From assembly GCA_017355425.1 (NCBI GenBank), contig CP070233.1, positions 4,381,501 through 4,445,500 of the forward strand: a DNA stretch of 64,000 bases. The letters are read 5' to 3'. The stretch is from Dolichospermum sp. DET69. Its GTDB lineage: Bacteria > Cyanobacteriota > Cyanobacteriia > Cyanobacteriales > Nostocaceae. The notes below the pieces were generated by a model. It made no database searches. It was not told where the DNA came from and saw nothing but the letters and a program-made list of their open reading frames with translations. The translations under genes and the position numbers were made by a program. This document shows, one piece after another, positions 7,539-63,638 of the stretch (position 1 is the stretch's first letter; every line of letters begins with the position of its first letter).

Positions 7539-7700
7539 ATGCTAGAAAAGCAATTGGTTGAATTTGAGCTAGAAAATGGCGGTAAATTCCTAGTGGAAAT
7601 TGAGGAATCAGAAGATACATCTCTTGCTACTGAGAGAGTCGCTTTACCATCTGGGCGAGAAACGCAGTGTACCAGGATTTATAGATTGTATGTCAACTGA
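7539..7700 (+). pseudogene. Trypco1-like (trypsin-co-occurring) domain, truncated
   Basis: An ATG at 7539 gives MLEKQLVEFELENGGKFLVE, then IEESEDTSLATE, ending after 53 residues. The start resembles the Trypco1 / CU044_2847 family (hydrophobic strand, E(D/N)GG, LVE(I/V)), small proteins encoded beside trypsin-like proteases in bacterial conflict systems. The family is usually about 90-110 residues; here the second half is missing and the frame runs into the next gene, overlapping its start by 11 bp. It is therefore probably a remnant. Assignment to the family rests on about 35 residues. Confidence 0.5.
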
Positions 7701-8712
7701 AAATTACTTTCAAACCTTTAGAAGTGCGCTCGCTCGCATTTATAATAAAAACTGTAAAGTTGTTGGCGCTGATTTTTTAGTGAATCAGTACCATCTTCTT
7801 ACCTTCCGTATCTTTGGCTTTCCCCAAGGACATGATCTTGGTGTCTGGGCTAATGATGAACTGCTTGATGTCCAAGCTACTCACTCGATACAGATAGAAG
7901 CCATTAAAGTTCCTAGATATCAGATTGAGCTTGGTTTTAGTGATTCTCCTGTGTGGGATAAATCATTACAGGGAGTTGTGGGTATGGCTGTACCCGCAGA
8001 GAAAAGGCGAGAAGGAGTCAAAGCGGCATTTAGGATGCCTACAACTGTGTTAAATAGTGAACTGCTTGATGCCCAAGCTACTCGCTCGATACAGATAGAA
8101 ACCATTAAAGTTCCTGGATATCAGATTGAGCTTGGTTTTAGTGGTTCTCCTGTGTGGGATAAACCATTACAGGGAGTTGTGGGTATGGCTGTACCCGCAG
8201 AGAAAAAGCGAGAGGGAGTCAAAGCGGCATTTAGGATGCCTACAACTGTGTTAAATGGTGAACTGCTTGATGTCCAAGCTACTCGCTCGATACAGATAGA
8301 AGCCATTAAAGTTCGTGGATATCAGATTGAGCTTAGTTTTAGTGGTTCTCCTGTGTGGGATGAATCATTACAGGAAGTTGTGGGTATGGCTGTACCCGCA
8401 GAGAAAAAGCGAGAGGGAGTCAAAGCGGCATTTAGGATGCCTATAAATGTGTTAGTGGAAACTGGGGATTTCTTAAATCAAGCCATGCAGCAAAAACCAA
8501 TAAATTCTTCTCGTTCTTTTAATCGAGTACAAAAAATTAAAGTCAGGCAATTGGAAAAACGTTTCGCAATTTTAGAAATTGATTATGAAGCAGTTTATAA
8601 CCAATTGAATGAAACACTAGATGCTGAATTTAAAAATAAAATACAGCTAAAACTGAAGAGAATTGAGCAAGAGATGAATGATGTCTTTGGAGAGTTAAAA
8701 ATGATCGGGTAA
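7690..8712 (+). CDS. Degenerate trypsin-like protease with triplicated active-serine segment
   Basis: From the ATG at 7690 the 340-residue product begins MSTENYFQTFRSALARIYNK, a usual lead-in for trypsin-like proteins of cyanobacterial conflict systems. The GxGFLV...HxLTCAHV region is reduced to GADFLVNQYHLLT followed directly by FRIFGFPQGHD, so the catalytic histidine segment appears deleted. Then come three tandem 67-residue units, each carrying the serine-loop motif GFSGSPVWD (GFSDSPVWD in unit 1, SFSGSPVWD in unit 3) and LQGVVGMAVPAE. The last about 75 residues form a charged helical coiled-coil-like tail (LEKRFAILEIDYEAVYNQL). It is probably not an active protease. Confidence 0.7.
   Translation: MSTENYFQTFRSALARIYNKNCKVVGADFLVNQYHLLTFRIFGFPQGHDLGVWANDELLDVQATHSIQIEAIKVPRYQIELGFSDSPVWDKSLQGVVGMAVPAEKRREGVKAAFRMPTTVLNSELLDAQATRSIQIETIKVPGYQIELGFSGSPVWDKPLQGVVGMAVPAEKKREGVKAAFRMPTTVLNGELLDVQATRSIQIEAIKVRGYQIELSFSGSPVWDESLQEVVGMAVPAEKKREGVKAAFRMPINVLVETGDFLNQAMQQKPINSSRSFNRVQKIKVRQLEKRFAILEIDYEAVYNQLNETLDAEFKNKIQLKLKRIEQEMNDVFGELKMIG
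7858..8460 (+). repeat. Three in-frame 201-bp tandem repeats within the trypsin-like gene
   Basis: Units start at 7858, 8059 and 8260, each with GAACTGCTTGATG(T/C)CCAAGC. Spacing is exactly 201 bp, 67 codons, so the frame is kept. Units 2 and 3 are the most alike. Each unit encodes the serine-containing loop and the following strands of the trypsin fold. Confidence 0.95.
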
Positions 8713-8849: not shown

Positions 8850-8850
8850 G

Positions 8851-9057
8851 GTCAATAACTCAGGGCTGAAGCCACTGAGCTTGTAAGAAATCAAGGCTTA
8901 CGTGTTTGACTAGCTCATCGAGACGCAATTTGGTACGAACTTCCAGATACTTCCCTAGTCTGGATTATCTTCAAGCTATCTTGTAATAGCGTTGGTTAAA
9001 GCCAAGACATCTTGATTGCGTTGAGCGAAGGGACATTAAACTTTACTCGAAGGATTA
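8851..9057 (+). ncRNA. Putative IsrB omega-RNA (5' exon of intron-split region)
   Basis: It starts with GTCAA (8851), pairing with TTGAC that closes the first domain. Inside are hairpins CTCAGGGCTGAAGCCACTGAG-like (8859-8879, stem CTCAG/CTGAG) and GTAAG/CTTAC. The equivalent region of the elements at 61329 and 63232 has the same layout with different paired bases (GTCAG/CTGAC; AGCTTG/CAAGCT), which is compensatory change. IscB/IsrB omega-RNAs are encoded upstream of the protein with the guide taken from sequence left of the element; here that would be the bases ending AATTTCCTAAATACTG. The 3' part is cut by the intron at 9058. Confidence 0.6.
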
Positions 9058-11239
9058 GTGCGATTCGTTGTTAGCTGAATCACGGTATCCAGCCCGTACA
9101 TAAGCTAACCAACCCAATCTAGAAATAGAGAAAGGTTGAACTCTCGGTCTGATATGGGTGCAAGTCCCATCTGCCAGACTCAGGTATGACTCCCTATCTG
9201 CCTACGATGACCCGACTCGGCTTCGGGAGGTCGAAGCTAGGAACAGGACGCAATCAGACATCCGTTGTGGGGTGACACTGGCGTTAATGGGGAGTTCCCA
9301 CGGTGAAACAGAGCCTGGAAAAGCAACTTATCGAGAGGCGGGACACAATACAAAAAACCCGACCTCATTGGAGTTAATTCCCGCCGCATCTTAGTCCCAT
9401 AGCGGTACGAGTCCAGGGATTCCAGTGGTTGAAATGGCTACACCTAACGGAACTAATAATCAACCGAGGGAACGAATAAAAACGGATTGAGGGTCTAAGG
9501 GCGGTCGAACCCTACAAGTAGGCTGGACGAGCAGCGGAATTCCCTCAATCCGGGTAGGACAGACCGTAATTGGTCTGAGGTGTTCAGAATACACAAACTG
9601 GAGCAGAGCATGATTGGACACAGAGACAACTCTAGTGAATCTTGGAAGACCTTACCCTGGAAGAAATTCCGCCGTAACTTATTCCGCCTACAAAAACGAG
9701 TGTACAAAGCGGTTCAAGTTGGAGACAAGCGCAAAGCTAAGTCCCTACAAAAGCTGATTCTGAAATCAACCGCAGCGAGATTAATGGCTATCCGTCAAGT
9801 AACACAGCTAAACGCTGGTAAAAAGACCGCAGGAATTGATGGCAAAAAGTCCCTTACCTTTAAGGAACGCTTTGAGCTTAATGAACTGCTAAAAGCATCC
9901 GTTAGCAACTGGAAACACCAGGAACTAAGAGAAATACCCATCCCCAAAAAGGACGGTACGATGAGGATGCTGAAAATCCCTACTATTGCAGACAGAGCTT
10001 ACCAATGCCTTGTCAAATACGCATTAGAACCAGCGCACGAGGCAACCTTCCATGCTAGGAGCTACGGGTTTAGGACGGGACGTTCAGCGCATGACGCACA
10101 GAAAATCCTGTTCATAAACCTATGCTCTGCGCGAAATGGAATAGATAAAAGGGTTATAGAACTCGATATCGAAAAATGCTTTGATAGGATAAACCACACC
10201 GCCATCATGGATAGACTCATAGCTCCCAAGAGCATAAGACAAGGTATTTTCCGATGTCTCAAAGCCGGAGTCAACCCAGAATTTCCTGAACAGGGAACGC
10301 CTCAAGGCGGAGTGGTAAGTCCACTACTAGCTAACATCGCTTTAAACGGCATTGAAAGCATCCACAGATATAAAGATGCCGGAAGTAAAGTAATAGAACC
10401 AACAATCCGATACGCGGATGACATGGTGATAATACTCAGACCTCAAGACGATGCCACAGAAATACTTGACAAAATCAGTCAGTTTTTAGCAGAGCGGGGA
10501 ATGAAAGTCAGCGAGAAAAAGACAAAGCTAACCGCCGCGACAGATGGGTTTGATTTCCTCGGCTGGAACTTTTTAGTCCAGAAAAACGGGAAGTTTAGAT
10601 GCGCTCCATCAGTGGACAATTTTAAATCTTTTCGCAAGAAAGTAAAATACATCGTCAACAACTCGAATTATGGTGCTACCACAAAGGCTGAGAAATTAGC
10701 CCCTGTAGTTAGAGGCTGGAGGAATTACCACCGCTTCTGCAAGATGGACGGGTCAAGAAACTCGTTATTTCACATCCAAAACAGAGCATTTAGGGTATTC
10801 AACAAGGAAACTAAACAGAATCGCTATACCAGTAAGCAATTACTAGATAAGGCGTTTCCAGCAGTCCCTTACTCCGAAAACAAACACATCAATGTCAAAG
10901 GTGAGAAATCACCTTATGACGGAGATTTAAGTTATTGGAGCGAACGTAACAGCAAGCTCTATAACAACAATACCTCTAAAGCCCTCAAACGGCAAAGCCA
11001 TAAATGTGGTCATTGTGGTCTTAAAATGCTCAATGATGAGAAGGTACACTTACATCATGTTGATGCCAATCATAACAATTGGAAACCAAACAACCTTCTA
11101 GCAATTCATGAAAGCTGCCACGATTATATTCACATGAGCAAAAACGAAAGCTAAGAACATCGGAAGCTGGGTGCAGTGAAAGCTGCACGCCCAGATTTAA
11201 CAGAGAGGGGCGCGGGATAATACCCGCCCTCGACTCTAC
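9058..11239 (+). mobile_element. Group II intron (about 2.18 kb) with maturase gene
   Basis: The 5' end GTGCGATTCG matches the group II consensus GUGYG. Domain V is at 11165-11196 (stem GCTGGGTGCAGT, GAAA loop, GCTGCACGCCCAG). Domain VI follows (11200-11239), with a candidate branch-point A at 11233, seven bases before the AC end (CTCTAC, ending 11239). A possible EBS1, TAATC near 9455, is complementary to GATTA just before the 5' splice site. The intron lies between the omega-RNA-like region and the isrB start codon. The exact splice sites are inferred. Confidence 0.8.
9610..11154 (+). CDS. ltrA: Group II intron reverse transcriptase/maturase with HNH endonuclease domain
   Basis: Multifunctional intron-encoded protein needed for splicing and retrohoming. 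I chose the ATG at 9610 (GGAGC eight bases upstream) over an in-frame GTG at 9580; this gives 514 residues. It has RT motifs in order: REIPIPKKDGTMRMLKIPT, SYGFRTGRSAHDA, LDIEKCFDRINH, GTPQGGVVSPLLANI and the catalytic RYADDMVII. The maturase X domain follows (APVVRGWRNYHRFC). The C-terminal HNH endonuclease is CGHCGLKML...LHHVDANHNN...LAIHESCHDYIH. All key motifs are present and there are no frameshifts, so the intron may be mobile. Confidence 0.95.
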   Translation: MIGHRDNSSESWKTLPWKKFRRNLFRLQKRVYKAVQVGDKRKAKSLQKLILKSTAARLMAIRQVTQLNAGKKTAGIDGKKSLTFKERFELNELLKASVSNWKHQELREIPIPKKDGTMRMLKIPTIADRAYQCLVKYALEPAHEATFHARSYGFRTGRSAHDAQKILFINLCSARNGIDKRVIELDIEKCFDRINHTAIMDRLIAPKSIRQGIFRCLKAGVNPEFPEQGTPQGGVVSPLLANIALNGIESIHRYKDAGSKVIEPTIRYADDMVIILRPQDDATEILDKISQFLAERGMKVSEKKTKLTAATDGFDFLGWNFLVQKNGKFRCAPSVDNFKSFRKKVKYIVNNSNYGATTKAEKLAPVVRGWRNYHRFCKMDGSRNSLFHIQNRAFRVFNKETKQNRYTSKQLLDKAFPAVPYSENKHINVKGEKSPYDGDLSYWSERNSKLYNNNTSKALKRQSHKCGHCGLKMLNDEKVHLHHVDANHNNWKPNNLLAIHESCHDYIHMSKNES

Positions 11240-11247
11240 CTCTCTTA

Positions 11248-12369
11248 ATGCGAGTACCCGTAATTTCAGTAGACAATACGCCATTAATGCCAACTAAACC
11301 AAGTCGTGCAAGACGATGGATCAAAGATGGTAGTGCAATCGGCAAATTCGACAAACTTGGCATTTTCTATGTCCAGTTATTAGCCGAATCAAGTAATACC
11401 GAAACGCAAGAAATAGTTCTTGGTTTAGATCCTGGCAAACTTTTTTCAGGTATAGCGGTTCAATCCAAAAAGTTCACCTTGCAGATGCTACATTTAGTTC
11501 TACCATTCAAAACAGTCAAAGACCGGATGGAGCAACGATCAATGATGCGACGTAGCAGACGAGGAAGGCGAATCAATAGAAAGCTATCTTTCAGTAACCG
11601 TAATCATCGTCAAGCAAGATTTGATAATCGTCGTGGCTCAAAATTGCCTCCAAGTATTAGAGCAAACAAAGACTTGGAATATCGAGTAATTAGTTTACTC
11701 CTCCAACTTTACCCCATAAAAACAATTGTTATTGAAGAAGTAGAAGCGCGAGGCAATAAAGGCTTTAGTCCCGTTATGGTTGGGCAGAGATACCAAATTG
11801 TCCGACTATCACAACTTACAAATGTCGTTTTAAAGAAGGGCTGGGAAACATCAAACCTTCGTAAGCATCTGAGATTGCACAAAGAAAAATCCGATAAATC
11901 TTTGCAAATACCAGAAACGCACGCTGTTGATGCAGTAACGTTAGCTTGCTCTGAATTTGTTAAATACCAGACATGGGAAGGAGCTAAAAATCATGGCGCA
12001 TCTTGGGTAGGAAATGCAGATGTCACTGAATCCCAATTCACCATTGTCCGTCGCCCACCAATTAGCCGTAGACAATTACATTTGATGGCTTTTAGCTCTT
12101 ATGGTAATCGTCGGAAATATGGAGGCACTACAACCCGTCATGGTTTTAGAAAAGGTGACTTTGTAAAAGCTAGTCAAGGCAATAAAACCTTCTTTGGCTG
12201 GGTTAGTGGAGACACTGAAAAACAAGTTTCAGTTAGTGATGCTAATTGGAAAAGATTAGGACAATGCACTGTTAAAAAAGTTAAGTTGATACAACGATCA
12301 ACAGGTCTAATTATCACGGCGGTTAAAACCGCCCGTGTCGCTTCCCTCTGGTGCACGCTTTGTGACTGA
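11248..12369 (+). CDS. isrB: IsrB-type RNA-guided nickase (HNH-less IscB relative)
   Basis: A 373-residue protein. The N-terminal PLMP domain is visible as NTPLMPTKPSRARRWIKDG (residues 10-28). RuvC-I is VLGLDPGKLFSGIAV (Asp61). An arginine-rich bridge helix is RRSRRGRRINRKLSF (101-115). RuvC-II is TIVIEEVEARG (Glu163/164). RuvC-III is ETHAVDAVTLACS (His225, Asp228). Only about 50 residues separate RuvC-II from RuvC-III and contain no HNH motif. This is the layout of IsrB, described as a nickase guided by an omega-RNA of about 300 nt. The C-terminal domain (FRKGDFVKAS...FGWVSGD) is that of IscB/IsrB target-recognition regions. The last 18 codons are read from the element's right-end repeat. 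No good ribosome-binding site lies directly upstream in the intron; after splicing, GAAGG would lie about 12 bases before the ATG. Confidence 0.85.
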   Translation: MRVPVISVDNTPLMPTKPSRARRWIKDGSAIGKFDKLGIFYVQLLAESSNTETQEIVLGLDPGKLFSGIAVQSKKFTLQMLHLVLPFKTVKDRMEQRSMMRRSRRGRRINRKLSFSNRNHRQARFDNRRGSKLPPSIRANKDLEYRVISLLLQLYPIKTIVIEEVEARGNKGFSPVMVGQRYQIVRLSQLTNVVLKKGWETSNLRKHLRLHKEKSDKSLQIPETHAVDAVTLACSEFVKYQTWEGAKNHGASWVGNADVTESQFTIVRRPPISRRQLHLMAFSSYGNRRKYGGTTTRHGFRKGDFVKASQGNKTFFGWVSGDTEKQVSVSDANWKRLGQCTVKKVKLIQRSTGLIITAVKTARVASLWCTLCD

Positions 12370-12395
12370 GTTTCCCACTTACCGCGAGGTCTTAT
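12319..12395 (+). repeat. Right end of IsrB element
   Basis: The palindrome GCGGTTAAAACCGC (12319-12332), then CGTGTCGCTTCCCTCT, GACTGAGTTTCC and CACTTACCGCGAGGTCTTAT. The palindrome and following sequence are shared with 61698 and 63546 (plus strand), and the last 20 bases with 63731-63750 (minus strand). The palindrome overlaps the end of isrB. Confidence 0.8.
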
Positions 12396-12446
12396 GAATA
12401 TGATGTTGAGGAATTATTAGAAAATTGCGTAGAATTTTTAGTCTAA
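12396..12446 (+). pseudogene. Coding-like fragment right of the IsrB element
   Basis: Seventeen codons, EYDVEELLENCVEFLV and a stop, immediately after the element. They may be the 3' end of the gene whose upstream part lies at 8757-8849. Not recognised. The rest of the gap to 12709 shows nothing clear. Confidence 0.3.
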
Positions 12447-61328: not shown

Positions 61329-61745
61329 GTCAGTAACCCAGCCCTAAAGGGACTGAGCTTGCAAGAGAAATCAAACAAGCTGTACTGACCAGACCACCCT
61401 GGCATAGTCTAAGGGTAGCCGTTATTTGAGTCACGACACCCCGGAATGCGAAGCTAGTTCCCTGCTCTGTCGCTTGTGATTAAACAGTTCTAAGGTCACT
61501 GGAACAGTGTTGCAAGTCTAACAAGCTCTTATAACGCAGTCGAAGCTAACATTACCCCAGAAATGGGAGGCTATGAGTGAGCAAAACATTATGCGTACAG
61601 GGTTGAGAAATTTGAATCGGTAATTGTCCCGTTGAAAGTACATCACAACAGTACCCCGAATTTCCCAACTCCAAGGCGGTAATGAAAAAGATTCAATGCG
61701 GTTAAAACCGCCCGTGTCGCTTCCCTCTCAGGTCTAAAGACACTA
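61329..61745 (+). mobile_element. ORF-less IsrB-type omega-RNA element, copy B
   Basis: Starts GTCAGTAACCCAGCCCTAAA and holds the same RNA-like domain as copy C (63232) and the isrB element: GTCAG/CTGAC closing pair, CAGCCC.../GGGACTG, AGCTTG/CAAGCT, then GTAGCCGTTATTTGAGTCAC, AGTTCCCTG, TAACAAGCTCTTATAAC, GCTAACATTACCCCAGAAA. After a short unrelated stretch (61570-61695), the right-end palindrome GCGGTTAAAACCGC (61698-61711) and CGTGTCGCTTCCCTCT follow. The distal right end is partly deleted. No isrB or other gene is inside. Confidence 0.7.
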
Positions 61746-63224: not shown

Positions 63225-63231
63225 ATAGAAG

Positions 63232-63638
63232 TCAGTAACCCAGCCCTAAAGGGACTGAGCTTGCAAGAGAAATCAAGCAAGCTGTACTGACCAGATCACC
63301 CTGAGCATAGTCGTTTGCCTAGCATACAGAAAGTTAGGGTAGCCGTTATTTGAGTCACGACCCCCACCGAATGCGTAGCTAGTTCCCTGCCCTGTCGCTT
63401 GTAATTAAACAGTTTTCAGGTAACAGGAACAGTGTTACCGGACTAACAAGCTCTTATAACTGGTCGAGGCTAACATTACCCCAGAAATGGGAGTTGGTTT
63501 TTCAGGTTTCCAATCAAAAAACCTGACTAAAACTTAAGATTCAATGCGGTTAAAACCGCACTCTTCGGGATATTGCCACGTGTCGCTTCCTTCTCAGCCT
63601 TAAAAGGACTGAGTTTCCTGCATACCGCCAGGTTTTAT
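63232..63638 (+). mobile_element. ORF-less IsrB-type omega-RNA element, copy C
   Basis: Starts GTCAGTAACCCAGCCCTAAA eight bases after the rre1 stop codon. The RNA-like domain (63232 to about 63492) is very similar to copy B, ending in GCTAACATTACCCCAGAAAT. A short hairpin (CAGGTTTCCAATCAAAAAACCTG, 63503-63525) follows. The right end has GCGGTTAAAACCGC (63546-63559), GACTGAGTTTCCTGCATACC and GCCAGGTTTTAT (ends 63638), matching the isrB element. If the left boundary is the guide junction, the guide would be read from the end of rre1 (ending AATGGCCTAGATAGAA). Confidence 0.75.

Follow-up and report, generated by a model that had tools for sequence, protein, structure and literature searches.

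The DNA considered here, hereafter the window, is a stretch of 64,000 nucleotides (nt) from the cyanobacterium Dolichospermum sp. DET69 (positions 4381501-4445500 of contig C1 in a genome of 6.04 Mb on two contigs), and what is of concern in it is an IsrB element whose omegaRNA and isrB gene are parted by a group II intron. The element occupies 8851..12395 of the forward strand, as do all features below, from GTCAATAA at its left end to ..GGTCTT at its right. The homology among the six close copies in this genome (the window's own and those called B, C, C2, D and E) starts at GTCAATAA or just past it and ends before ATGA, which stands directly outside the right end in all six (12396-12399 in the window) and has the form of NTGA, the target-adjacent motif (TAM) given for Desulfovirgula thermocuniculi IsrB (DtIsrB) in the accessible part of its report (PMC9581776). 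By eye, the ATG of this flanking ATGA at copies C2, C, D and E resembles the start codon of a host open reading frame (ORF), as if the TAM picked out gene starts.

The isrB gene, 11248..12369, is an intact ORF of 373 amino acids with a PLMP motif, and its product matches PF14239 (RRXRR, E 8.4e-48), which is its sole Pfam match; no HNH domain was found by Pfam in the 373 residues, and this fits the HNH-less IsrB proteins of about 350 amino acids. Its nearest solved relative is DtIsrB (8dmb, E 1.1e-48), alignment to which finds the RuvC residues D61, E163 and D228, plus H225, in place (numbering by eye), so that a PLMP-type N-terminal domain is accompanied by a split RuvC (D, E, D). The IscB model NF040563 covers residues 5-176 only, with 95.1 bits against a cut-off of 175. 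A preliminary description of this DNA had named the element IsrB on such features, and both that name and the RuvC residues on which it partly depended have stood up; judged by its sequence the element is an IsrB, i.e., an OMEGA nickase, though RNA-guided nicking by it is putative. Those of its relatives found with names are cyanobacterial, the closest being from Dolichospermum.

In front of the gene, and constituting the 5′ exon, is the omegaRNA scaffold (8851..9057), delineated by an Rfam match and a 24-row alignment. Comparison with a covariance model, which the preliminary description had suggested, gave a full-length match of the HEARO model RF02033 at 8851-9040 with 47.8 bits and E 6.9e-8 in a search of 3,901 bases, the curated gathering cut-off being 83; the omegaRNAs of the other five close copies score 31.5-54.1 bits, and it may be that the model favours IscB-type RNAs. 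In the full-length alignment, whose 24 rows are the joined window and 23 relative loci picked by hand from 47, 38 of 47 predicted pairs have at least one compensatory change. The match in copy C, which has no intron, stops 24 nt before the ORF, the omegaRNA there being immediately upstream of its gene. By analogy with IsrB, a guide would be expected just upstream of 8851. Elsewhere in the genome HEARO matches are numerous, 70 at E ≤ 0.001, and two above the cut-off are in the window itself (61329-61555 and 63231-63479); no nuclease ORF was seen behind these two, and by eye they have right-end sequence in common with the IsrB element.

Where exactly does the intron begin and end? Copy C provides an empty site, GGATTA followed directly by TCTCTTTATG, and copy E a filled one, in which the intron stands between the same two sequences, and this places the window intron at 9058..11240 (2183 nt, GTGCG...CTCTACC). 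A full group II intron precisely between omegaRNA and isrB ATG had been proposed beforehand and is what these sites reveal, but its 3′ end, put at 11239, is one base further on; because the empty and filled sites of this one genome end the intron at 11240, the 3′ exon starts TCTCTTAATG and not CTCTCTTAATG. The 3′ end CTCTACC (11234-11240) is common to all 23 full-length copies of the intron in the genome, its last C moving with the intron in every context, and the ACC end is confirmed by copy B, as its joined exons equal an intron-free allele. Within the intron, 9580..11154 encodes a reverse transcriptase/maturase with YADD, for which RVT_1 (E 5e-39), RVT_N and GIIM are all above their Pfam cut-offs and TIGR04416 is just below its own (E 9e-88, 294.7 bits, cut-off 300). 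The ‘RT-HNH’ protein of the preliminary description is thereby upheld for its reverse transcriptase half, while the HNH-like C-terminus is a matter of inspection by eye and was not detected by Pfam. Domains V and VI lie at 11162..11239 (RF00029, 50.1 bits, gathering cut-off 40). With the GUGYG 5′ end, these domains, the ORF and the target pairing described below, the intron belongs to group II and is predicted to be self-splicing.

The part of the omegaRNA modelled by HEARO ends at 9040 and is uncut, and a reading in which the omegaRNA is untouched was abandoned after a terminal hairpin beyond that point was shown to covary. This hairpin is cut in its loop, which sustains the earlier proposal of a split omegaRNA 3′ end. 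Its 5′ arm AGGA (9051-9054) and the loop part TTA (together 9051..9057) are in the 5′ exon, as located by covariation in the linkers of relatives and by RNAalifold, and the loop remainder TC with the 3′ arm TCTT (11241..11246) is in the 3′ exon, as located by covariation and the empty-site comparison; the intron enters at TTA/TC and so parts the arms. Overlapping the 5′ arm is the Shine-Dalgarno-like GAAGGA of isrB (9049..9054), recognized by its sequence and its anti-Shine-Dalgarno pairing, which is 10 nt from the ATG when the exons are joined and 2,193 nt from it with the intron present. As the intron is in the hairpin loop, splicing would restore both the hairpin and the Shine-Dalgarno to ATG spacing. 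That the Shine-Dalgarno was left behind in the 5′ exon was claimed from the outset and agrees with calculated pairing of -6.0 kcal/mol for the spliced and +0.4 kcal/mol for the unspliced form, the anti-Shine-Dalgarno sequence being assumed and not taken from this genome.

The case for the hairpin comes from relatives. From 52 relative loci (L079-L130), some of which are one gene present in two collections, five whose match stopped short of the protein start were dropped, leaving 47, and L103 was dropped too as its motif was outside the frame used, leaving 46 loci with 33 distinct linkers. Ahead of the isrB start these have a hairpin whose loop is TTAT(N) and whose 5′ arm includes the Shine-Dalgarno. 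Over the 33 linkers 84.1% of cells are paired, three of the four pairs show two-sided changes, and the inner two form in 33/33 with AU/GC/UA exchanges. Double-changed cells number 21 (at most 6 in slid controls), and the covariation score of 0.511, against no more than 0.246 in slid controls, was reached by none of 500 shuffles; the shuffles ignore relatedness among linkers and the slid controls preserve it. RNAalifold on the 24-row alignment recovers the same hairpin unaided, and single-sequence folding yields it for most, not all, linkers. An alternative register with a 6-nt loop was rejected, having 72.0% of cells paired and a covariation score of 0.306 where its own +1 slide has 0.307. The core of the start-site hairpin, GGATTATCT, recurs within the omegaRNA, at 8962-8970 in the window and in 12 of the 24 alignment rows in all. 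According to the accessible part of the DtIsrB report (PMC9581776), the terminal hairpin of that omegaRNA, SL7, contains the Shine-Dalgarno, SL7 and SL8 contact the PLMP domain, and SL7/8 truncation reduces nicking. Judged by its position, the window hairpin is probably the counterpart of SL7.

How did the intron find this loop? Pairing of its exon-binding sites (EBS) with the intron-binding sites (IBS) of the 5′ exon offers an answer. IBS2, CTCGA (9046-9050), and IBS1, GGATTA (9052-9057), together spanning 9046..9057, are matched within the intron by EBS2, TCGAG at 9331, and EBS1, TAGTCC at 9392, with 5/5 and 6/6 pairs respectively (one of the six being G-U). The EBS places were chosen by scanning the 23 copies for intron columns able to pair with the 5′ exon, and the totals of 128/138 for EBS1 and 100/115 for EBS2 (permuted means 103.7 and 50.4) were reached in none of 2000 permutations, a test not fully independent since the places were chosen on those same copies, some of them near-identical. 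Two copies, L065 and L073, have poor EBS2 pairing, each 1/5. The comparisons show an intron inserted precisely between ..CTCGAAGGATTA and TCTCTTAATG.. of the IsrB element, and a family that its copies and pairings mark as mobile and retargetable; intron retargeting through EBS change is described for Thermosynechococcus elongatus in the accessible part of PMC2882425.

The 23 full-length introns are among 28 matches in the genome, and six of them sit in five IsrB elements, those of the window, C2 (two), E, B and D, so that five of the six close elements have the intron family and copy C alone lacks it. The exons of C and E are 98.64% identical, with the intron in E only. At the site occupied in the window, site 1, the introns of the window, C2 and E are 99.86-100% identical, while the joined exons are 74.71% identical for window and E and 91.05% for window and C2, and because of that disparity the intron is judged, from sequence comparison, to have homed separately into diverged IsrB copies instead of riding along with them. 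Copy C2 (L046, G000:C2:68991-73356, on the 200,795-bp contig C2) has two 100% identical introns in perfect tandem at this site, the second insertion having targeted either the same 5′ exon or the 3′ end of the first intron. In copy B the intron occupies a second site, codon 29 of the ORF, and the joined exons equal the intron-free L110 of Dolichospermum sp. ST_sed8 in 1,364/1,364 bases with the same 60-nt left flank; from that identity at the same place it follows that the insertion was exact, in frame and recent. Copy D (L056/L049) combines a site-1 5′ junction with a site-2 3′ junction and is without the start codon and first ~28 codons. Its intron is like the window's in its 5′ part and 97.0% identical overall to that of copy B, a pattern such as recombination between two introns, deleting the isrB start, would give. 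Outside isrB, three of the 23 are within related nuclease genes, namely two iscB-like C-terminal reading frames, whose NF040563 matches (E 4e-32 and 3e-13) fall short of the curated cut-off and which have no Pfam match, and one tnpB (PF01385, E 6e-17); a relaxase gene and a DUF2887 gene are further hosts. The introns L066, L067 and L068, two at the same codon of the iscB-like frames and one in the relaxase gene at a similar target, are mutually 100.0% identical.

Beyond this genome there is a second case. G091, of the same order and another family, has a 2,153-nt intron, 77.7% identical to the window's over 2,115 aligned bases, between ..GGCGAAGAGACTT and AAACAATTTTGGGTTATACCAAATCATG, inside the omegaRNA end; the position in the G091 linker that corresponds to the window site is 16 nt further downstream. 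Read by eye, EBS1 (AAGTCT) and EBS2 (TTCGC) of this intron match its site fully, and the isrB of G091 shifts frame near residue 230. Here, then, a related intron entered the IsrB omegaRNA 3′ end independently in another cyanobacterial family. L157 (G015) has an isrB that is intron-free but decayed. A match to the site-1 junction pattern in G446 was set aside, being without isrB, omegaRNA or intron match, as were same-genus introns L160-L162, whose 5′ exons match partly and which gave no IsrB match. In a plasmid collection 18 records matched, none over more than 80% of the query, and at least 15 of these cover query positions 199-2396, which is the intron and not the IsrB element. The ORF just upstream of the window element, 7600-8712, contains repeats, near-identical by eye, of a segment with weak, below-cut-off similarity to Trypsin_2, and at its C-terminus Effector-associated domain 9 (PF19962, E 5.5e-21).

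What would the arrangement do? The transcript would start upstream of the omegaRNA, and the intron, with its maturase, would splice out, rejoining the hairpin arms and setting GAAGGA 10 nt before the ATG, by which isrB would become translatable and the omegaRNA would regain its native 3′ end. In the unspliced RNA isrB lacks its own ribosome-binding site, the omegaRNA keeps its core but its terminal hairpin stays open, and both nickase synthesis and omegaRNA function might be expected to suffer. We consider it probable that a group II intron retrohomed into the loop of the IsrB hairpin, that splicing rejoins the arms and the Shine-Dalgarno, and that the intron persists as a nested parasite because its splicing makes it tolerable. 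The dependence of the nickase on splicing is then most likely incidental to the intron's homing into an element present in many copies, and not a selected switch. The coupling is, we think, real in the trivial sense that the Shine-Dalgarno of isrB cannot serve it without splicing, and it may be passive, as the intron family, with its 23 full copies, proliferates and retargets and has inserted at many other places. Several points weigh against this account. Splicing, and translation dependent on it, are deduced from sequence. The spliced value of -6.0 kcal/mol is unexceptional, since the 5th percentile for random 25-mers of the window is -6.8 and their median -2.7, and cyanobacteria often translate without a Shine-Dalgarno. 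The outer two hairpin pairs fail in 14 and 7 of the 33 linkers, the window's own hairpin is weak (four pairs, one G-U), and the linkers of L110 and L123, one base off the joined window in the folded stretch, give alone -0.4 kcal/mol and another fold. Group II introns usually end AY, and this one ends ACC in 23/23 copies; the limited independence of the EBS test has been mentioned. The two other elements with both site-1 junctions are C2, with its tandem, and E, with a disrupted isrB. In favour of the account is the ratio of nonsynonymous to synonymous substitution rates (dN/dS) for isrB, 0.06-0.17 in 13 comparisons (four with dS > 1), although it reflects purifying selection over the whole family and not over the time since insertion.

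Some of these points would suit neutral proliferation, in which the intron goes wherever its EBS matches, the multicopy, expendable IsrB is hit and isrB is silenced with no productive splicing. The spread of 23 full copies over varied genes, with EBS mostly matched to site, is as it would predict, as are the loss of the isrB start in copy D and the disrupted isrB of copy E. A match spanning the site-1 junction was encountered in this genome only, with none elsewhere among the matches listed for 217 genomes of the family or in 243 genomes of the order; as no more than three candidates per genome were scored in either search, diverged cases may escape, and the order search omitted the genome's own copy E. 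However, isrB in the window is an intact gene that retains its RuvC residues, the junctions are exact with copy B precisely in frame, and the near-identical introns look recently active, when homing generally requires spliced intron RNA; silencing without splicing is thus to us a possible but rather doubtful explanation. At the other extreme, splicing could be a switch, selected to limit nickase dose, between a spliced nickase mRNA and an omegaRNA that the 5′ exon supplies in released or unspliced form. Suggestive of this are the insertion point, which parts the Shine-Dalgarno from the ATG and lies in the loop of a hairpin contacted, in its DtIsrB counterpart, by the PLMP domain, the independent G091 intron and the group I precedent for splicing that positions a ribosome-binding site, in the accessible part of PMC3984707. 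Yet in 46 of the 47 start-bearing relative loci the 62 nt ahead of the start contain no intron end (L105 being the exception; an intron further upstream would escape), and family introns in this genome are also inside isrB, iscB-like and tnpB reading frames, which bespeaks opportunism, and such a selected switch we regard as unlikely. An extension of it, very unlikely in our estimation, has the intron as omegaRNA processor: first-step splicing would free a defined omegaRNA 3′ end, full splicing would build the nickase mRNA and close the IsrB-binding hairpin, the ribozyme would set the guide-to-nickase ratio, and IsrB would in return supply nicks that assist the priming of intron reverse transcription at fresh sites, so that retroelement and RNA-guided transposon would be allied in both directions. 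Composite transposition, i.e., arrival of the intron with one ancestral IsrB element and copying along with it, would explain several elements with an intron at the same site, but was ruled out as the source of the repeated introns by their 99.86-100% identity amid exons differing by up to 25%; for E and B it is refuted by the intron-free twin of the one and the intron-free ortholog of the other, and overall it is exceedingly improbable.

The arrangement brings a predicted self-splicing retroelement into the region that controls an RNA-guided nickase, and the hairpin concerned is one thought, in the studied relative, to link guide RNA and nickase expression. Intron-free and intron-bearing natural pairs, C and E in one genome, and B and its ortholog in another, exist, and therefore direct comparisons of insertion and loss can be made, and whether an OMEGA effector depends on splicing is open to test. 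The findings also suggest that OMEGA elements serve group II introns as landing pads, since they are present in many copies and their linkers are highly conserved. Among the titles and abstract starts listed in a literature search, with preprints and most subscription papers outside its reach, no description of a group II intron in an IscB or IsrB element was encountered.

A conflict between the introns of IStrons and guide RNAs was reportedly the subject of a 2024 study. IStrons, as characterized in the accessible parts of PMC4227781 and PMC3984707, resemble the present arrangement in that a self-splicing intron is joined with an IS200/IS605-type element, but theirs is a group I intron, itself a component of the transposon, by which the host gene is spared, whereas in the window a group II retroelement, missing from homologous elements, invaded a transposon. 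D. thermocuniculi IsrB shares the PLMP domain, the HNH-less split RuvC, the omegaRNA directly upstream, the Shine-Dalgarno terminal hairpin and the NTGA-type flank; the accessible part of PMC9581776 mentions no inserted intron, and the window hairpin is interrupted. The group II introns of T. elongatus form families that likewise spread by retrohoming with changes of EBS, one intron inserting into another, though the accessible part of PMC2882425 makes no mention of omegaRNA or OMEGA-nuclease targets. In the group I intron of C. difficile controlled by cyclic di-GMP, splicing puts a ribosome-binding site upstream of a start codon, as it would here, but that intron is ligand-controlled and outside any transposon, as far as the accessible part of PMC3984707 conveys. 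Nested mobile elements are already known, and a group II intron within an IsrB element is a new variation on them.

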